Shown here: in pieces, positions 48,821 through 64,000 of the stretch
How the letters are laid out: every line of letters begins with the position of its first letter
Numbering within the stretch: the first letter of the stretch is position 1
Assembly (NCBI GenBank): GCA_000824845.1
Contig: CCNC01000094.1
Span: forward strand, 62,001 to 126,000
Source: Mesorhizobium sp. ORS 3359
GTDB taxonomy: Bacteria; Pseudomonadota; Alphaproteobacteria; Rhizobiales; Rhizobiaceae
Direction of reading: 5' to 3'
Length of the DNA: 64,000 nt
The notes under the pieces: model-generated
Told to the model about the DNA's origin: nothing
What the model saw: only the letters and a program-made list of their open reading frames with translations
The model's database searches: none
Translations under genes and position numbers: made by a program

Positions 48821-50812
48821 TTGGGCGGGATCGTGACTGGGGTCGGTAGACCGCAACGTACAGTACCGGAGCAAACATCCAGTGAGGCAAGGACCTCGCA
48901 CCTGACGCCGGTATCGTCGATGCGTACATTCTGGGGGCTGATGCGAGCCTACTGGTTCTCCGACCGGTGGAAAGAAGCCTGGACGCTCACCTTCGTCATC
49001 GCCGCCCTCACCGCTCTCTCCAGCAAGGCCGGCGTTTGGTTTGCCGTGGCGTTGGGCGAACTCGGCAATTCGATCGCCTTCCTCCACGATGCCGCCAACA
49101 CCCATCCGCTGCAGACCATCCTGACCAACGCCGGCATACTGGTACTGCTGGTGATCCTGAAGGATGCCGGCTTCACCGGCGTGCGCAACCTCGTTTCAAC
49201 GACCCTGCACCGCAAATGGCGCGGTTGGCTGGACAACCAGTTCAACCAAGCCCTGCTAGACGGCAATCATACCCATTTCCATGCCCAGCATGGTTCGGCG
49301 GCGGGCGGCGTCGTCGCTCCCGACAATATCGACCAGCGCATCCAGGAATCGATCAAGGACATGACCGGCGGCGCCATCGGCCTCGCCATGGGCGTGCTTG
49401 GCGTGGCGACTTCGCTTTATTTCATTGGCGAAAACCTGATCGGATCGTCGGTCGAGGTCAAAGGCCTGGAATTCCTGGGCGGCTATGGCACCGCGGTGCT
49501 GGCTTTCCTTGCCGTCGCCATCTACGTTCCGCTGAACACTTGGATCGCGGTCAAGCTCGGACGCCTGCTCGAGCGGCTCAATGTCCGCATGCAACAGGCG
49601 GAGGGCAGCTACCGCAGCGAACTCATTACATTCCTGCGCCGCAGCTTCCACGTTGCCGCCTCGCATGGCGAGGACGTGCAGAAGTCGATGCATGACAGGC
49701 TCTATGTCGATATCGACAAGACATGGGGCCGACTGAATATCGTCAACACCAGCTACACCTCGTTCGAGCTGATCTACAATTTCGTCGGCGCCCGTATCGT
49801 TGCCTACGCGCCAGGCCTCTTGTCGTTCATCCACAACCGCCTCGACTACAAAGGCTACATCACCGGTTCCGAAATGGTCGCGCAGTTGATCAGCCAGTGC
49901 TCGTGGTTCATCCATGTCATGCCGGCGATTGCGACGCTCAGAGCCAACAGCCAGCGCGTTACCGAGCTCGCCAACGCGATTGAGAACGTCCAGCGCCCGC
50001 GGGAATTCTACCAGCAGACCGGCCGATCCGACTTCAGCTACGCGAGCCAGAATCCGGTTTTCGGTCTCACGATCCAGAAGCTGGAACTCGCCCATCAAGG
50101 CGAGGACGCCACACCTTTCCTCAGCGCCGCGAACCTCCGTTTCCGCCGCGGCGAATGGACCTTCCTCAAGGGCGAGTCCGGCTGCGGCAAGACTTCGCTG
50201 ATCAAGGCGATCAATGGCCTCTGGCCCTATGGGCGCGGCACCATCGTGTTCCCGGAAAGCGTGACGAGCTTCTATGCCGCGCAGGAAGTCAAGCTTCAGC
50301 AGGTCTCACTGAAGCAGCTCGTTTGCCTGCCGGGCTCAGAGCACGACCACGGCGATATGCAAGTTGCGGCCGCCCTGCACAAGGCCGGCCTCGGCGACTT
50401 CATCGAACACCTGGCCGACGAGAGCCGCGAAGGCAAGATCTGGGACCAGGTGCTTTCGGGCGGCCAGAAGCAGAAGCTGGTGGTCGCGCGCATCATCCTG
50501 CAGCAGCCCGGGCTTCTCTTCCTCGATGAGGCGACCGGCGCGCTCGACCCCGATGGCAAGATAGCCTTCCACCAGGCGATCAAGGACAATTGTCCGAACG
50601 TCACCGTCATCAGCGTCATGCACGAGGCAGTGCCGCCGCGCTCGCTTTCCGGCGAGGAGTTCTATCACAGCGTGGTCGCGATCGCCGACGGCGTCGCCAC
50701 CAAGAAGCCCCTCGCTCCCAGCCTGCCGCGCGAGCTCACCACGATCCTCACTCAGCCGCCGCGGCCGACCGAGGACAAATGGCTGCGCTTCCGCCGGCTG
50801 AAGCAGAAATAG
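48821..50812 (+). CDS. SbmA/BacA-like ABC transporter with fused ATPase
   Basis: 663 residues from a TTG. The N-terminal SbmA/BacA-like membrane domain (about 35-420) has FWGLMRAYWFSDRWKEAW, NLVSTTLHRKWRGWLDNQFNQALL and about six helices. The C-terminal ATPase (about 430-640) has Walker A GESGCGKTS, signature LSGGQKQKLVVARIIL and Walker B LLFLDEATGALD. This ABCD-type architecture (YddA-like) exports or imports peptides or very-long-chain fatty acyl groups. In rhizobia BacA relatives matter for bacteroid survival against plant peptides; a similar role is inference only. Confidence 0.9.
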   Translation: MGGIVTGVGRPQRTVPEQTSSEARTSHLTPVSSMRTFWGLMRAYWFSDRWKEAWTLTFVIAALTALSSKAGVWFAVALGELGNSIAFLHDAANTHPLQTILTNAGILVLLVILKDAGFTGVRNLVSTTLHRKWRGWLDNQFNQALLDGNHTHFHAQHGSAAGGVVAPDNIDQRIQESIKDMTGGAIGLAMGVLGVATSLYFIGENLIGSSVEVKGLEFLGGYGTAVLAFLAVAIYVPLNTWIAVKLGRLLERLNVRMQQAEGSYRSELITFLRRSFHVAASHGEDVQKSMHDRLYVDIDKTWGRLNIVNTSYTSFELIYNFVGARIVAYAPGLLSFIHNRLDYKGYITGSEMVAQLISQCSWFIHVMPAIATLRANSQRVTELANAIENVQRPREFYQQTGRSDFSYASQNPVFGLTIQKLELAHQGEDATPFLSAANLRFRRGEWTFLKGESGCGKTSLIKAINGLWPYGRGTIVFPESVTSFYAAQEVKLQQVSLKQLVCLPGSEHDHGDMQVAAALHKAGLGDFIEHLADESREGKIWDQVLSGGQKQKLVVARIILQQPGLLFLDEATGALDPDGKIAFHQAIKDNCPNVTVISVMHEAVPPRSLSGEEFYHSVVAIADGVATKKPLAPSLPRELTTILTQPPRPTEDKWLRFRRLKQK

Positions 50813-57361: not shown

Positions 57362-57784
57362 TCAGGCCCAGTGGCGCATCTGTGACCACCTTCACATACG
57401 TCAGACAGGGTTTGCGCGCAGATATCGTAACGGGGGCGCCAACGGCTTGGCTGACCTGCAGATCCCGAAGACGGCCTCCGGACTGGATGCAGTTTCGCAG
57501 GAAGCAATTTGATCACCTAGCCATTTTCAGATTTGCTGTCTGCGCGCTGGGCACCTCCCACCCAAGCGCGCGGACGGCGTTCTCGAAGGATCGGTCCGTA
57601 ACCGCCAGTGCGCCCGGTCTCCTTACAGTTTGCCGGCTTATCCGGTTTCGACGTGTCGGGCATGACATTGGAACGTCTGCCAACCACCCGCCGAATTCGG
57701 AGAGTCACCGTAGAAGGAGACGACGCTTTGATCGAGCACGCACTTATCCTACAATTTCCGTCTAACCAGAGGCGGAATCGTATC
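57362..57784. other. Intergenic region upstream of the Crp-type gene
   Basis: About 420 bases between the divergent small membrane gene and the regulator. It holds the CRP palindrome (57381-57396) and the ribosome-binding sequence GAAGGAG (57713-57719) that would serve a TTG at 57728. Open frames here have no recognisable family. Confidence 0.5.
57381..57396. promoter_or_regulatory. Perfect CRP-type palindrome (TGTGA-N6-TCACA)
   Basis: TGTGA (57381-57385), CCACCT, TCACA (57392-57396). Both five-base half sites match the CRP consensus exactly. On the minus strand it lies about 108 bases before the ATG at 57280, a distance that would allow a class I promoter with TATGGA (complement of 57333-57338). 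On the plus strand the Crp-type gene starts about 390 bases away. Confidence 0.65.
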
Positions 57785-58468
57785 ATGGCTACAGACGGCG
57801 CGGACGACAGCAACCTGCCGCGCCTGGCGCGCATCGATCCGCGCCACTTCGACCTGCTGTTCGGCGGCTGCAAGCTGGAGCGCTACGCCGCCGGCCAGCA
57901 TTTGTTCGTCCAAGAGGATGCCTCCGATCGCATCTATGGTGTGATAAGCGGCACGGTCGAGATCTCGATCTATTCGCCGGGCGGGCAGAAGCTGGTGGCC
58001 AATATCGAGCTGTCGCGCAGCCTTGTCGGCGAGATCGGGGCACTCGACGGACGCCCGCGCACGGCCACCGCCAGCTGTCTCACGGCATGCGAGCTGGTTT
58101 CGCTGAGCCGGACACAGCTCTTTGACCGCATTGAGAAAAACCCGTCTCTCGCGCGAGCGATGATCGAATTGCTGTGCACGCGGCTGCGCTGGGTCAGCGG
58201 CGAGTTGGGCGACCAGGCCTTTTTCGGCATCGAGGCCCGGCTGGCGAAGCGGCTGGTGTTCCTGAGCGGGGTCATGGCCGACTCCGCCGGCTGGATTCCG
58301 ATTTCGCAATCCGAACTCGGCGAATTCCTCGGCGCGACGCGCGAATCCGTCAACAAGACGCTCAACGACTGGCGCAACCGGCAGATGATCGCCATCAAGC
58401 GCGGCGGCCTGCGCATCATCAACGCCGCGGCGCTGAACCACATCGCCGAATCGCAGGACGACGACTGA
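57785..58468 (+). CDS. Crp/Fnr-family regulator with cyclic-nucleotide pocket
   Basis: 227 residues from the ATG at 57785; a TTG at 57728 with GAAGGAG eight bases upstream would add 19. The cNMP-binding domain (about 20-135) keeps the pocket signature GEIGALDGRPRTAT, with E83 and R92 as the sugar and phosphate contacts. No FNR-type N-terminal cysteines. The helix-turn-helix (about 172-195) reads SQSELGEFLGATRESVNK; R186, E187 and K191 line up with the CRP residues that read TGTGA. It converges on the P450-DyP gene, 49 bases apart. Confidence 0.9.
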   Translation: MATDGADDSNLPRLARIDPRHFDLLFGGCKLERYAAGQHLFVQEDASDRIYGVISGTVEISIYSPGGQKLVANIELSRSLVGEIGALDGRPRTATASCLTACELVSLSRTQLFDRIEKNPSLARAMIELLCTRLRWVSGELGDQAFFGIEARLAKRLVFLSGVMADSAGWIPISQSELGEFLGATRESVNKTLNDWRNRQMIAIKRGGLRIINAAALNHIAESQDDD

Positions 58469-58517: not shown

Positions 58518-61500
58518 TCACAACCGCGAGATCATGTAGCGCAGCGCCGAGCGGCTCGGCATGAAGAAATAGCCGCCGCCTTTCGTGGTGACGAACTTCG
58601 GCACATCCTTGAGCACGGTGACCTTTTCCCAGGACGGGATCGAGAACCGGCCGCCGCCGCCCCTTGCCCCGATTGTCGGATCCGTCTCCCCGACAAGACC
58701 CTGGAACGAGCTCGACGAGACCCAGGTCTGCTGGATGAACTCGTATTGGCGCTCGATATCGGCGTTGAGACACATGAAGAGCAGTCCCTTCTCTGTCTTC
58801 CCGCTTCTGTCCTTTTTCTCGTAGGTGCGGCCGACGCGCAGGATGCGATGGCGCTTGCCGATCCTGATCTGCGTCTCGCGATCCTCGCCGAGCGAATCGC
58901 GCGGGTTGGAACGGCGTATGTGGGAGCCGAGCGGACAGGCGTGCCCCTGCGGATCCTCGGCGCCGAGCGCGAAATCATTGTCGACGCCGCGGCCCGGCCG
59001 CCCGTTCGGATTGCGCACGAGCGAGCTGCCGTCCTGCCAGCGGCCGAGCATCTTCGCGGCCACCCAGCGTTGATCGATGGCGGGATCACCGGTCTCATTT
59101 GCGGCCTGCGTCGCCGCCCGCCTGCAATAATCGTCAAACAATTCGACATGCTGCTCGAACTGGCGCATGACGAGGAAGGTGCCGTTGCGGCCGAAATCGC
59201 GCGGCGGAGGCGGTTGCCCGGGTATCTGGCGGTTGCGCCGCACCTGCGACAGGATGCCGGCGCGGTCCAGCGCCGCCTCGACCGAGGGCGAAGACGGGTA
59301 GAAGCCATGCTCGTCGCGATAACCGAACAGGAACTCGCCCGGCGCTAGCAGATGCATGGGCGCGGCTCCCTTGGCGGCGCGCGCCGTACCCCGAACGATC
59401 GGTTGCGAGATGCCGTCGACGAAGCCGAAATGCTCGACCGCCCGCTTGCCTTCGCGCTTCACCTTCAGCGGCAGTTCGGCGGTCACCGACATCCCGGCGC
59501 CTGCCGTCCGTCGCTTCATGGCCGTGATCTCGGCCTTAAGCGAGGACGGTGTCTCGGCATAGCAGACGATGACGGCATCGACGGGCTTGGCGGAAGACCC
59601 CCACTGCCATTTGTCGGGCGCGTCAGGGCCGGTGTCGTTAAGGATGCGGCTGCGCTCGGGCGTGCCCATGCCTTGCCGGAAGGCGACCGGGAACGTGTCC
59701 AGCGGTTCGTCGTCGACGCCGCCTTCAAGCCCAAGCCGGCGCAGTCCGTTAGGGCCGAACGCCACCGTCATGGCGCGGCCCGCGGGCACCCCGTCGCCGA
59801 AGCTGGTTTTGCCGATGACGAAGTCGAGCCACGCCTTGCGCTTCGCCGCCGGCAGGCCGTCCGGCACCTGGATCGCAAGCATATGCGCGTCGCCGAGCGC
59901 GCCGAACGGCCCGAAGAAGATCGACTGGATTTCGCCGGATTCCAGCGCTTCGAGGGGCGACGACGGGGGCTCTGGCAGGCTCTTCGCATCAGCCGGCAGC
60001 GCTTTCGGACGCGGCAGGGAACCGAAAAGGCTCAGCCAGTCGCGCGCCTCGTTGCCGGTAGCTGAGGCGATGCCGCGCCTGATCCTGGAGTTGATGCGAA
60101 TCCGCGTGGTGTTGAGGTGCGGATAGGCGGTGTACCAGAACAGCGTCGGCACCTGCTGGCGCCGCGCCCAGCGCTTGAAGCGATCGCCGTCGCGCGCGCC
60201 GTCCAGGAACAGCCAGCGCGTGCGCGGATAGCCGTCGGTGTTGCTCCATACACAGGTCAAGCCGGCCGAGGCCTTGGCGATGAAGTCCTCGAGATAGCTT
60301 TCCCAACTGCCTCCGTAATTGGAGAAGAACATCAGCCTGTTGGTGCCGGGCAACAGCACCCAGCGGGCGAAATGAATGGTGTTGATGGTAGCGAGGAAGC
60401 CTGGCCTGAACACCTTCTGCGCCGATATCGAGATCAGATAGAAGGAGAGCCGCAGCGCCAGCCGCCGCAAGATGCCCGCCTTCATCGTCGAGATCGCCGT
60501 CAGATTGTTCTGCGCGGTGTGGTCCTCATGGGCTAGGATCTTTTCGAGCGCGCCAATCTCGACAGGGGTACTCGCCGGCTGGTCCTTGTCCTCGAGCCGC
60601 CGCAACGCCAGGAAGCAAAGCCCGACGAACAGGGCGAGAATGGCCAGCAGACCGAGGACTGAAAGCAGAAGCGAGGTGCCCGCAATCGCGATGTTGGTGA
60701 AGGTGATCCCATGCGGGTTTCCGAACACGAGCACATAAGTCATGCGCCAGAAGGCCAGAATGACGATCGCGACGGTGGCGAACATCGCCGGCGTTAGCAG
60801 CGTCGTCGTCAGCGCCCGCCACCAGTGGCCGGACGGTCTTTCCAGCAGGCTTTCGGCGGGCTCGAATGCCCAGCCGAATTGCCCGAGGCACCGGACATGG
60901 TGGCGCGCCTCGGCAAGCACATCCATCGCATTGCCGGCGCCCGCGCGCGGCTTTTCGACGATCTCACGCACGCTGTCGGCGAGCTTGGCCTCGGCCAGGA
61001 TCCGCCGCACGGAATGTCCCGGCGTGCCGGAGAAAACCAGCCCGGCGGCGCTGCCGAAAGACGGCGATATCTCGATGTGCTTCCTCTTCAGGAAGTCTTC
61101 CAGCGAACCGCCATCCGGGAGGCCGCAGACATCCCTGAAGATCGGCCGCAGCCGGTGACCGATCGCCTGCGCTATGGCGGCAATGACATCGTCGGTGCTG
61201 CCGTCGCCGGAGATTTCCAGCACCAGCGCGCCGGTCTCGGTCCCCGATTTTTCGTCTTTGCCGGTAGGAGCGACGGCCAGGCTGGTGAAATGGATGGTGC
61301 CGACCTTGTCGAGCGCGGCCCTGATCTCGCCGATCGCCGGATTGCCAAGATCCGCGACCTTGTCGCGCACCGCATCGAGCGGCATCGGTCGGGTGATCGG
61401 GCACACCACGGTCACCATCGACTGCTCGGCTGTGCGGCAAAGCGGCGAGCGCTCGAAATCGACCTTGAGGCTTGCCGGGTAGGCGCCGACATTGACCATC

Positions 61501-62744
61501 TTGCCGGCCCTGCCCCGCGCGCGGGTCAGCTTCGGTTTGCTGAACAGGGCGCGGATGCATTCACCGATCTGAATGCGGGCGATTTCGGCGCCGATGCACA
61601 AATGGATGCCGTAACCGAACACCATGTAGTCGCGATGCGGGCGCGACGTATCGAACGCGTTCGGCCGCTGTACGATCTCCGGATCGAACATCGCCGAGAG
61701 TGTCGCCGGCATGACGACCGTTCCGGCTTTGACCACGCGCTCGCGACGGGTGCCCTTGCCGATGACCGCGTCACGCCTGGTGTAGCGCCAGGGTCCGATC
61801 CAGATCGGCTTGAAGCGCATGGCTTCCATGATCGCCCGGTCGAGCTTGCCGGTATCGCCGGCGCCGAGGGCCTCATCCACGGCCTGCCGTGCATCGGTTC
61901 GCGACAGGATCACATCCAGGCAATTGCTGCCGGCGAGCACATTGGTCGGCACGAAGCCGGCGACCATGCCGAGCATGATGGAATGGATGTCGGGCAGCGA
62001 CAGGCGTCCCTGGTCCATTAACGCAACCAAGCGGGCAAGCGGCCTGTCATCCTTGTCCGCCTTTTCCCGGACCGCGGCGATCGAGCGGTCGATAATTTTG
62101 ATCAGGCGATCTCCCCCGACCACGGCAAGCTGGCGCGTGGTGGGATTTGCCGTCGGATCGGAAAAGAACAGCGCGCTGAGCGCGATCGACCAGTCGGCGA
62201 ATTCGGTCTCATCGTCGATCTGAAGGCCGAAATAATCACGGCAGATGCGCACCGGAACGATCTTCATCAAGCCTGCAATGGCATCGAAGCCGGGGCTGGC
62301 GCGGGTCATGATCTCGCGCGAATGGCGCTCGGCGATCGGCCTGACGGTTGCTTCGACCTCCGCCGGTGGGAACGCGCTCAGCACGGCCGATTTCATCTGC
62401 CGGTATGCAGCGCCATCCTGCATGCCGAGAATGAAATTCGAGCCCCGGGCCAACTCGGCCATTTCCGGCCCGTAAGGCGTCTCGAACTCGTCGCCGCGCT
62501 CCAATATGTCGCGCACATCCGCGCCCTTGGTGACGAGCAGGAAATTGCCGAAGCCGGGATTCGGCCAGAAGCGGCGCAGCAGCGCCAGCAGCCAGCGCGG
62601 ATCGCCGAGAAGAAAGCCGGCGACACGCGAGGCGATGCCGCCCTTGGAACGCAGCCGATAGATGTCAAACGGCGGCATTTCGGCGACGGGACGCTGGCTC
62701 TTCTGGGCGGCCCGGACAGCGTCGAAGTACTTCAGTGTGATCAT
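58518..62744 (-). CDS. Cytochrome P450 - membrane region - DyP-type peroxidase fusion
   Basis: 1408 residues in one uninterrupted frame. Residues 1-440 are a P450: ExxR at E307-R310 and the haem loop FGYGIHLCIG with Cys383. The I helix reads AGFVPTN, with Pro266 where an acid usually precedes Thr267. Residues about 443-640 and 730-930 are uncharacterised; hydrophobic spans at about 649-674 and 684-714 separate them. Residues about 935-1408 are a DyP peroxidase: distal Asp1110 in GFVDGISQP, proximal His1275 in GSHIRRSNPR and distal Arg1303 in HRILRVG. Two haems in one membrane-anchored chain are predicted. No ferredoxin or reductase domain is present. A perfect CRP box lies 79 bases upstream of the start. 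Confidence 0.9.
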   Translation of the reverse strand: MITLKYFDAVRAAQKSQRPVAEMPPFDIYRLRSKGGIASRVAGFLLGDPRWLLALLRRFWPNPGFGNFLLVTKGADVRDILERGDEFETPYGPEMAELARGSNFILGMQDGAAYRQMKSAVLSAFPPAEVEATVRPIAERHSREIMTRASPGFDAIAGLMKIVPVRICRDYFGLQIDDETEFADWSIALSALFFSDPTANPTTRQLAVVGGDRLIKIIDRSIAAVREKADKDDRPLARLVALMDQGRLSLPDIHSIMLGMVAGFVPTNVLAGSNCLDVILSRTDARQAVDEALGAGDTGKLDRAIMEAMRFKPIWIGPWRYTRRDAVIGKGTRRERVVKAGTVVMPATLSAMFDPEIVQRPNAFDTSRPHRDYMVFGYGIHLCIGAEIARIQIGECIRALFSKPKLTRARGRAGKMVNVGAYPASLKVDFERSPLCRTAEQSMVTVVCPITRPMPLDAVRDKVADLGNPAIGEIRAALDKVGTIHFTSLAVAPTGKDEKSGTETGALVLEISGDGSTDDVIAAIAQAIGHRLRPIFRDVCGLPDGGSLEDFLKRKHIEISPSFGSAAGLVFSGTPGHSVRRILAEAKLADSVREIVEKPRAGAGNAMDVLAEARHHVRCLGQFGWAFEPAESLLERPSGHWWRALTTTLLTPAMFATVAIVILAFWRMTYVLVFGNPHGITFTNIAIAGTSLLLSVLGLLAILALFVGLCFLALRRLEDKDQPASTPVEIGALEKILAHEDHTAQNNLTAISTMKAGILRRLALRLSFYLISISAQKVFRPGFLATINTIHFARWVLLPGTNRLMFFSNYGGSWESYLEDFIAKASAGLTCVWSNTDGYPRTRWLFLDGARDGDRFKRWARRQQVPTLFWYTAYPHLNTTRIRINSRIRRGIASATGNEARDWLSLFGSLPRPKALPADAKSLPEPPSSPLEALESGEIQSIFFGPFGALGDAHMLAIQVPDGLPAAKRKAWLDFVIGKTSFGDGVPAGRAMTVAFGPNGLRRLGLEGGVDDEPLDTFPVAFRQGMGTPERSRILNDTGPDAPDKWQWGSSAKPVDAVIVCYAETPSSLKAEITAMKRRTAGAGMSVTAELPLKVKREGKRAVEHFGFVDGISQPIVRGTARAAKGAAPMHLLAPGEFLFGYRDEHGFYPSSPSVEAALDRAGILSQVRRNRQIPGQPPPPRDFGRNGTFLVMRQFEQHVELFDDYCRRAATQAANETGDPAIDQRWVAAKMLGRWQDGSSLVRNPNGRPGRGVDNDFALGAEDPQGHACPLGSHIRRSNPRDSLGEDRETQIRIGKRHRILRVGRTYEKKDRSGKTEKGLLFMCLNADIERQYEFIQQTWVSSSSFQGLVGETDPTIGARGGGGRFSIPSWEKVTVLKDVPKFVTTKGGGYFFMPSRSALRYMISRL

Positions 62745-62861: not shown

Positions 62862-64000
62862 TCATGCGGCTGACTTGGCCCGATCGAAATTGGCGATCAG
62901 GAAATTGTTCTTGGCCGGGTCAACGAACGGTATCCAGCGTATCCTCTGCTCGGAAAAGTCAGGATGCCGAGTCATGAAAATCGCAAGCTCGCGCTCTGCC
63001 TCGTCATGCCTGCCGCTCCTGATCAGGGCGCCTATCTTCAGGAACCTGGCGTAGAAGTAACTTGGCGACAGGTTGAGCGAGCGCTCGGCTGTGGCGATCG
63101 CGGCCGGCCAGTCCTCGACGAAGCAATAGGCGGCGGCCAGTTCGCCCAGATTATGGAAGCGATAGAGGTCGAACGGGCTCAACCGCTCGGTATCGAGGAA
63201 GAACGGGATCGCGCCGGCCGCGTCGCCAAGCAAAAGGCGCGCGCTGCCCATGGCCGAGCGGGCGAAGGCGAAGCTCGGATTGATGTGGATCGCCTCGGCA
63301 AGGTGCTCGGCCGCCAATGCCGGCAGGCCGCGCATGATGTCGGCCGCGCCAAGATAGGCATGCGGGCGCGCGTCGAGGCTGTCCATCAGCAGCGCCTTGC
63401 GCGCAAGCTCCTCTACCTTTTCCAGGTCGTCGCTGTCGCCGAAACGCAGCCAGGCCCGCCAGAAATACCACCAGGCCAGTTCGTTGAGCACGGCGCTCGA
63501 GTTCGGATCGTCCCGGTAGGCTCTGTCGAAGAAGTCGAGCGCGATGTCGGTGTCGCGGCGTGTGCGCCTGTTCATGTGCCAGCGGCCGCGCCTGACCAGT
63601 TGCCAGGTCTCAAGGCTCTCCCACGGCACCTGGAAGGTGCGCGCCTGCTCGGCGCGATCGACCTCCTTGTCGAGGATGGAAACGATCTCGCTGCCGACCT
63701 GATCGCGCAGCCTGAAGATGTCGACCAGATCGCGGTCGAAGCGTTGCGACCAGACCAGGCGCCCGTTCGAGGTGTCTGTGAGCGATGCGTTGAGACGGAT
63801 ATGCCTGTCGTGGCGCGCCAGCGTGCCGCTGACGATGTAGCGCGCGCCAAGCGCATTGCCGATGAGTCTTGTGCCCAGGCTGTCGTCGCGAAACTGAAAG
63901 CTGGATCCCTTGGCGATGACCGAAAGCCAGCGCGTGTGGGAAAGACCGTAGATGATGTCCTCGGCAATGCCGTCGGCCATATAGCCGACGTCCGGTTCGC
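62862..64000 (-). CDS. TolB-like/TPR protein, C-terminal part (possible adenylate cyclase)
   Basis: The frame runs off the right edge; about 378 residues are visible. The first part (YMADGIAEDIIYGLSHTRWLSVIAK, IVSGTLARHDRHIRLNASLTDTSNGRLVWSQRFDRDL in pieces) is the TolB-N-like domain, and the rest is TPR-like helical repeats (about residues 145-340). This pair typically follows an adenylate/guanylate cyclase or a CadC-type DNA-binding domain in rhizobia; the N-terminal part needed to tell is outside the window. Same strand as, and upstream of, the P450-DyP gene. Confidence 0.8.
   Translation of the reverse strand, partial: EPDVGYMADGIAEDIIYGLSHTRWLSVIAKGSSFQFRDDSLGTRLIGNALGARYIVSGTLARHDRHIRLNASLTDTSNGRLVWSQRFDRDLVDIFRLRDQVGSEIVSILDKEVDRAEQARTFQVPWESLETWQLVRRGRWHMNRRTRRDTDIALDFFDRAYRDDPNSSAVLNELAWWYFWRAWLRFGDSDDLEKVEELARKALLMDSLDARPHAYLGAADIMRGLPALAAEHLAEAIHINPSFAFARSAMGSARLLLGDAAGAIPFFLDTERLSPFDLYRFHNLGELAAAYCFVEDWPAAIATAERSLNLSPSYFYARFLKIGALIRSGRHDEAERELAIFMTRHPDFSEQRIRWIPFVDPAKNNFLIANFDRAKSAA

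Follow-up and report, generated by a model that had tools for sequence, protein, structure and literature searches.

Proteins that carry a haem peroxidase-type domain and a cytochrome P450 are known from fungi and oomycetes. In the fungal dioxygenase–P450 fusions, a fatty-acid hydroperoxide formed by the haem peroxidase-type domain is rearranged by the attached P450, and in the oomycete CYP5619 proteins the second domain is of the cyclooxygenase type. The fungal members (PpoA, linoleate diol synthases and 8/9-AOS; CYP6001–CYP6005) unite both domains in one chain, and excerpts of PMC13049297 and PMC4486971 present their P450 halves as self-sufficient, requiring no reductase. CYP5619 is described with the P450 first and the haem peroxidase/dioxygenase second (excerpts of PMC5919972 and PMC4486971) and with a degenerate haem-binding motif (PMC5919972, likewise in excerpt). 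In bacteria, a cyanobacterial dioxygenase product is converted by a catalase-related hydroperoxide lyase according to part of PMC13049297, and the RoxA-type relatives in Pseudomonas include, according to PMC4496055, a fatty-acid dioxygenase and a diol synthase. Here we analyze a gene of Mesorhizobium sp. ORS 3359 that joins a P450 to a DyP-type peroxidase through a previously overlooked middle region, which we divide into parts X and Y with a membrane hairpin between them. The gene lies in a 64,000-nucleotide stretch of contig CCNC01000094.1 (positions 62,001 to 126,000), hereafter the window, whose first letter is position 1. Given that the same partners are found fused or as neighbors in many bacteria, we suggest that they represent an undescribed, possibly lipid-directed, oxidation enzyme.

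The gene is read from the minus strand, where an ATG-to-stop frame runs from window position 62744 to 58518 and encodes 1408 residues; stops are present in the matching frame of the plus strand. The first-pass annotation of this DNA had called a single P450–DyP protein at exactly these coordinates, and we likewise find no stop or frameshift between residues 440 and 930. We compared 97 full-length alignment rows, among them the window protein itself and duplicate retrievals of some genomes; they represent 82 distinct sequences and fall into 40 clusters under 90% identity. An open frame of 1385–1548 residues recurs among these rows at 46–98% identity (L106 and L107 being aligned over 716–717 columns only), and the catalytic positions that had been assigned from the single sequence, Cys383, Glu307 and Arg310 of ExxR, Asp1110, His1275, and Arg1303, are correct and identical in all 97. 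Judged by this conservation, the recurrence of the full-length frame is far beyond chance, and the fusion is a real, old gene predicted to encode two haem enzymes and a membrane anchor.

Homologs of the fusion are not everywhere split into two genes, as the single-gene form recurs across genera. We surveyed the source genome together with 60 relatives, 61 genomes in all. The source genome and 21 of 36 genomes of the same genus have the gene as one full-length frame, while among the 24 genomes outside the genus only one, G051, has all parts at full length. In G051 the P450 is followed in the same frame by X-Y-DyP with a single TAG between them, so that the fusion could arise by loss of one stop. 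A named genome collection contains at least 77 loci, found with scan patterns that lie in the P450 and thus recover only loci with a P450 part rather than all loci; the genera among the matches listed are Mesorhizobium, Aquamicrobium, Zhengella, Nitratireductor, Chelativorans, Aquibium, Shinella, and Bosea, together with metagenome-assembled genomes. Three further genera come from plasmid records: Pararhizobium (51%), Novosphingobium (N. aromaticivorans pNL2, 33%), and Sulfitobacter (31%). The TAG of G051 is the kind of observation expected if the single frame were a recent or accidental fusion, or an artifact of annotation or assembly; however, we give this explanation next to no chance and regard it as refuted by the 82 distinct sequences from many assemblies, the eight named genera with three more on plasmids, and the conserved residues.

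The N-terminal domain belongs to the P450 superfamily, with the haem-thiolate motif, ExxR, and the P450 fold all present. It matches Pfam p450 (E 2e-10, above the gathering score), and its AlphaFold2 model (predicted template modelling score, pTM, 0.85; 35 sequences) superposes on PDB 3eje with Z 33.7 and a root-mean-square deviation (rmsd) of 2.8 over 363 residues. Besides p450, a Pfam scan of the whole chain (E up to 1) lists a pair of DyP models, two weak matches to membrane models, and nothing else; no redox-partner domain and no cyclooxygenase-type domain is among the matches. The acid-alcohol pair of classical P450 monooxygenases is incomplete in the window protein, which keeps the threonine and has proline at the acid column. 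The placement of this column is anchored by related P450s that read GAIDTT or GAVDTT where others read GAIPTI or GFVPTN; when the protein is aligned with EryK alone, the register moves by one residue, which puts valine at the acid and proline at the alcohol column. Given that residues 253–276 of the window protein contain no aspartate or glutamate, as in 94 of the 97 rows, the acid is lacking under either alignment. At the acid column, 32 DyP-linked P450s carry proline in 25 cases, aspartate in three, glutamate in one (L131), and another residue in three. Among background P450s, aspartate or glutamate occupies this column in 24 of 26 rows (20 of 22 distinct genes; four rows repeat another and related rows are not independent), and proline never does. 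The profile missed four of the 30 P450 loci (L197, L198, L199, and L205), which stand outside the background count; a motif search finds AGHETT in the first three and nothing in L205. The proline is not that of the CYP152 peroxygenases. These have Arg-Pro in the I-helix, and in the fusions arginine is absent from residues 253–276 and Val, Ala, Gly, or Thr precedes Pro266. CYP74 enzymes are not among the solved chains listed as nearest by sequence or fold, which excludes nothing.

Our phylogenetic analyses place 36 of 37 DyP-linked P450 rows, along with one lone P450, on one side of a branch with a Shimodaira–Hasegawa-like approximate likelihood ratio (SH-aLRT) support of 100, opposite 21 background rows and L131. 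Near-duplicates and one further row were left out of this tree, and a later tree also omits the long-branch L182 and L208. The L131 P450 has a normal AGHETT groove and ferredoxin and FAD-oxidoreductase genes alongside, although its joining the other linked P450s is not rejected by an approximately unbiased (AU) test (p 0.12). From the sequences, the DyP-linked P450s are a separate lineage, mostly without the usual acid. A search with the P450 alignment (hmmsearch) gave no match at E 1e-60, and the threshold was then set to 1e-20. P450 matches with E up to 1e-30 occur in 10 of 385 genomes of the class sample, in which at most four candidates were scored per genome: seven adjoin Y-DyP, two adjoin RoxA-like genes, and one lies outside the clade. 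The two RoxA-linked P450s (L227, 5329–8696, G421; L228, 7608–10655, G387) fall inside the clade and adjoin di-haem genes with two CxxCH motifs each in place of DyP. The outlier, from G287 (L229, match E 3e-33), groups with background P450s and was set aside. The lone P450 mentioned above (L029, 6768–8453, G033) has 561 residues and is 59% identical to residues 1–439; G033 also has the fusion, and its open reading frame list shows no DyP beside this gene.

The C-terminal domain has the GxxDG aspartate, the haem histidine, and the arginine of DyP-type peroxidases, His1275 being presumably the haem ligand from its alignment to solved DyPs. Its match to Pfam Dyp_perox_C (E 1.1e-4) exceeds the gathering cut-off (22.4 bits against 20), so that the Pfam search supports both halves of the fusion; the Pfam DyP_N model scores below its cut-off and NCBIfam TIGR01413 Dyp_perox_fam just below (93.9 bits against 100.5, E 1.1e-26). 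The best solved relatives by sequence are PDB 8re3, 8re2, and 4g2c. Contig 198 of the source genome encodes another DyP (L034, 8089–10037), which is not fused and has a weak Y-like frame next to it.

The region between the two enzymes is no mere linker, and it does contain the membrane spans claimed for the protein. Hydropathy places two spans at residues 644–676 and 679–718, and the predicted helices cover 652–672 and 682–719. An AlphaFold2 model of X-hairpin-Y (predicted local distance difference test, pLDDT, 83.2; pTM 0.81; 35 sequences) folds both X and Y as ferredoxin-like, and the two are weakly alike in sequence (hhalign probability 56%, E 1e-4). Across the 40 clusters, invariant columns make up 42% of Y (residues 755–910), 23% of the DyP domain, and 17% of the P450; Arg794, Tyr817, and Tyr871 are among the invariant residues of the Y alignment. 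Neither X nor Y has a Pfam match at E up to 5 or a convincing PDB relative by sequence. Structural comparison with VIA-align matches X and Y together to WhiE-ORFI (9lmn; Z 12.7, rmsd 4.3, 224 residues; model residues 1–439) and to a polyketide decarboxylase (9ltx; Z 10.6, rmsd 4.8, 196 residues; model residues 6–436), followed by a putative monooxygenase (Z 7.7). Foldseek matches are weak (best E 9.5e-3, none at E 0.001), so the barrel assignment rests on VIA-align; DyP-type barrels are not among the VIA-align matches listed, which excludes nothing. In the model, X and Y thus look like one split ABM/SchA-like barrel with the membrane hairpin between its halves. Visual inspection of the N-terminus reveals no signal peptide, and all domains therefore probably face the cytoplasm.

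Searches with Y and its split relatives gave matches in 11 of 385 genomes sampled across the class, 26 of 397 across the order, and 27 of 398 across the phylum (the samples overlap and include the source genome). In 60 loci taken from the Y searches, the 61-genome survey, and plasmids, Y and DyP occur together in 58, a count to be read with the fact that sampling was mostly by Y. The exceptions, L028 (DyP and P450) and L173 (Y), both end at contig edges of genome G059. We assigned partner labels by hand to the 59 loci with a DyP: an adjacent P450 in 24, an N-terminal P450 fusion in six, a C-terminal P450 fusion in two, a catalase-like gene in 11, a RoxA-like gene in two, and no recognized partner in 14. 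L131, with both P450 and catalase-family genes, was counted with the P450s, the P450 of L137 is divergent, and the catalase-like label denotes similarity to a Methylorubrum protein annotated "catalase family." On a quick DyP tree of 67 rows (the 59 loci and eight fusion representatives), the six labels require 19 changes versus 37 in shuffles, and the catalase-like label alone requires at least five on starred branches. The repeated exchange of P450 and catalase-like genes suggests that these partners do a comparable job. The C-terminal fusions, single DyP-P450 frames of reverse order (L143, 713–3757; L181, 5804–9325), trace to a single supported origin distinct from the N-terminal fusions and represent a separate fusion event. 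Two further arrangements were observed: a 1209-residue Y-DyP frame (L145, 8905–12531, G228) with approximately 465 extra residues, in which Pfam finds DyP only, and a DUF4331 gene that comes after the Y and DyP genes in two genomes (L030, 4700–8906; L031, 7083–10243).

The window gene and its closest neighbors are listed in Table 1. We examined the flanks of 75 full-length frames at named loci from the matches listed. The cyclase adjoins the fusion in 72 of the 73 whose upstream DNA extends far enough, the Crp/Fnr regulator adjoins it in 72 of 74, and 69 of 72 have both neighbors; L087, L105, and L111 are the misses. The gene upstream of the Novosphingobium and Sulfitobacter fusions matches the cyclase protein only in the region behind the catalytic domain. 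Genes further off in the window encode HAD, glyoxalase, ribose-5-phosphate isomerase, DUF2059, and MgtE proteins, an ABC transporter, and a glutathione-reductase-type flavoprotein whose frame lies 4.6 kilobases from the fusion among housekeeping-type genes. The ABC transporter (48821–50812) has ABC_membrane_2 and ABC_tran domains, and we take it to resemble BacA/SbmA or fatty-acid type half-transporters. Around the split relatives, the scan covered 40 proteins chosen by hand, one of which was run twice and some of which are catalase-like; most come from a set of 325 neighbors, and the results are examples and not frequencies; operon mates were listed by crude 300-base chaining. The gene set of L191 is Y, DyP, patatin, P450, and FadL; L192 has FadL and an unscanned open reading frame of patatin size, L141 an LCAT-like hydrolase, and L186 an esterase-like gene. 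Glutathione S-transferase C-terminal domains occur near L177 and L188, Phenol_MetA_deg near L189, a ferredoxin-reductase-like gene near the P450 of L172, and unrelated genes elsewhere.

Table 1. Window coordinates of the P450–DyP fusion gene, its predicted parts, and its flanking genes.
Feature	Position	Strand	Basis or remark
Whole coding sequence, 1408 residues: P450, X, two membrane helices, Y, DyP	58518..62744	−	
Cytochrome P450 domain, residues 31–433	61446..62654	−	Pfam p450, AlphaFold2 model, fold match
P450 I-helix, residues 250–281; oxygen groove GMVAGFVPTN	61902..61997	−	
Pro266-Thr267, proline at the usual acid column	61944..61949	−	97/97 rows, multiple alignment
K-helix ExxR, residues 307–310	61815..61826	−	
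Haem-thiolate ligand Cys383 in FGYGIHLCIG	61596..61598	−	
X, predicted first ferredoxin-like half of split alpha+beta barrel, residues 441–572 (plus helices)	61029..61424	−	
Predicted membrane hairpin, residues 652–719	60588..60791	−	Hydropathy and model
Y, predicted second barrel half, residues 745–905	60030..60512	−	
DyP-type peroxidase domain, residues 936–1405	58530..59939	−	
DyP Asp1110 in GFVDG	59415..59417	−	
DyP His1275 in CPLGSHIRRSNPRD	58920..58922	−	Alignment to solved DyPs
DyP Arg1303 in LRVGRTY	58836..58838	−	
Crp/Fnr-type regulator (cNMP_binding + HTH_Crp_2), convergent, 49 bases downstream	57608..58468	+	Conserved neighbor
Nucleotide cyclase (Guanylate_cyc + TPR, 593 residues), co-directional, 117 bases upstream	62862..64000	−	5′ part beyond window; conserved

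Based on the sequence and the models, the protein is probably anchored in the membrane, faces the cytoplasm, and has two haem sites. We tentatively favor a membrane-bound enzyme independent of redox partners, in which the DyP-XY part and the P450 process a peroxide or hydroperoxide, with a hydrophobic, probably lipid, substrate. The DyP-XY part would oxidize or peroxidize this membrane substrate, and the P450, in an isomerase or peroxygenase mode, would take over the resulting peroxide or hydroperoxide and cleave its O–O bond, its oxidant thus being peroxide and not NAD(P)H. The cyclase and Crp/Fnr genes on either side would probably control expression. The first-pass annotation had already suggested a peroxide-linked, two-step oxidation of a hydrophobic or polyphenolic substrate at the membrane. 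Peroxide use is partly supported, fitting both the DyP and the missing P450 acid, and the hairpin is in keeping with a hydrophobic substrate, as are the patatin, FadL, and LCAT-like neighbors of a few split relatives; little points to a polyphenol. We consider unlikely, in its full detail, a more specific scheme that would follow the logic of cyclooxygenase and prostacyclin synthase: the DyP and a cofactor-free XY barrel would make a lipid hydroperoxide at the membrane, the P450 (elsewhere the catalase-like or RoxA-like protein) would convert it to an oxylipin-like product, and the cyclase and Crp/Fnr regulator would control the system.

Several observations weigh against a peroxide-driven, lipid-directed enzyme. 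Three of the 97 fusions carry Asp268, two places past Pro266, the clade P450s of L141, L163, and L136 keep the aspartate, and both RoxA-linked clade P450s keep glutamate. The groove of EryK, an ordinary NADPH-driven hydroxylase, reads AGHITTT and likewise lacks the acid, so that a missing acid alone does not exclude monooxygenation. In 14 of the 59 DyP loci we recognize no second haem enzyme, and the catalase label is weak: of eight catalase-like proteins scanned from the 11 loci, two pass the Pfam Catalase cut-off, two fall below it, and four have no match, and the catalase-like genes of L169 and L170 are on the opposite strand. The window's own neighbors are regulators and housekeeping-type genes, with no lipid genes among them. 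We know of no DyP that makes lipid hydroperoxides, and a lipoxygenase, considered as an alternative maker of the hydroperoxide, was rejected because it occurs in only one of 45 cassette-bearing genomes.

It is possible, though on the unlikely side, that the P450 is an ordinary monooxygenase served by a ferredoxin and reductase encoded elsewhere, with the fused DyP oxidizing the product further or clearing peroxide from uncoupling. The I-helix threonine conserved in all 97 rows, the example of EryK, and the nearest solved P450s, which are named hydroxylases or unnamed P450s, are consistent with this, as are the ferredoxin and FAD-oxidoreductase genes in the L131 operon and the reductase-like gene of L172. 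However, neither a ferredoxin nor a ferredoxin reductase turned up among the window genes that were scanned closest to the fusion, the L131 P450 is outside the clade and has the normal acid, and an exchange with catalase-like proteins is unexpected for a monooxygenase step. A rather unlikely alternative is detoxification of peroxide or oxidation of aromatic or polyphenolic compounds, in which a DyP of broad peroxidase activity and a P450 peroxygenase would attack the same aromatic compound. DyPs are reported to oxidize dyes and lignin model compounds, and the Phenol_MetA_deg gene lies near a DyP locus; however, the fusion has no N-terminal secretion signal visible by eye, and the informative neighbors of P450-bearing split relatives are lipid genes.

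The principal catalysis may lie in the X-Y barrel, acting without a cofactor as an ABM-type oxygenase or decarboxylase, with the two haem domains providing it with peroxide or taking peroxide away. No other part of the protein is as conserved as Y, the best folds are WhiE-ORFI and the polyketide decarboxylase, and Y accompanies the DyP almost throughout, though in loci sampled mostly by Y; given that neither X nor Y matches a Pfam model, we hold this explanation to be improbable. That the protein is a redox- or peroxide-sensing haem protein signaling to the adjacent cyclase and Crp/Fnr regulator, and not a metabolic enzyme, appears to us very improbable. The two genes do flank nearly every full-length fusion, and Novosphingobium and Sulfitobacter retain a relative of the non-catalytic part of the cyclase upstream, but the catalytic residues of both enzymes are kept, and in the split relatives the flanking genes vary while the enzyme parts persist.

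If the favored reading of a redox-partner-free, peroxide-processing enzyme is true, the gene represents another, unrelated evolutionary fusion of a haem peroxidase with a self-sufficient P450, and DyPs, whose natural substrates are to our knowledge largely unknown, gain a defined metabolic role. The locus points to an uncharacterized P450 lineage and an uncharacterized X/Y barrel that are testable as a self-contained peroxide-driven catalyst, and to bacteria of the Mesorhizobium group as a possible source of oxylipin-like molecules.

We found no description of a DyP–P450 fusion in open-licence PMC papers, a search outside which most subscription journals fall, and as far as we have seen the DyP-based fusion with a split membrane barrel is undescribed. 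The earlier claim that no enzyme with this layout had been described therefore holds for the DyP-based form only, given the haem peroxidase or dioxygenase fusions to P450s of fungi and oomycetes. The components compare with known proteins as follows. The domain shares the GxxDG aspartate, histidine, and arginine with DyPs 8re3, 8re2, and 4g2c, which are chains of 442–493 residues with no P450. X and Y match both barrel halves of ABM/SchA-like proteins such as WhiE-ORFI and the polyketide decarboxylase but not their sequences, and here the hairpin parts the halves. Catalase-like and RoxA-like proteins, which belong to unrelated families and whose role in these loci we infer, replace the P450 beside the DyP, and at two loci a RoxA-like protein also replaces the DyP beside the P450. 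CYP5619 shares the P450-first order and differs in being eukaryotic and lacking a DyP. In the fungal fusions the peroxidase domain is of the cyclooxygenase superfamily and N-terminal, whereas here it is a DyP, is C-terminal, and is separated from the P450 by the barrel and hairpin. For this stretch of the I-helix, PMC13049297 gives (V/A)PxT or TPxG in fungal 9-AOS P450s, and thus a proline, as in the window P450. This likeness is one of analogy and not homology, and by that analogy the Mesorhizobium protein would be an independent bacterial counterpart of the fungal dioxygenase–P450 fusions.

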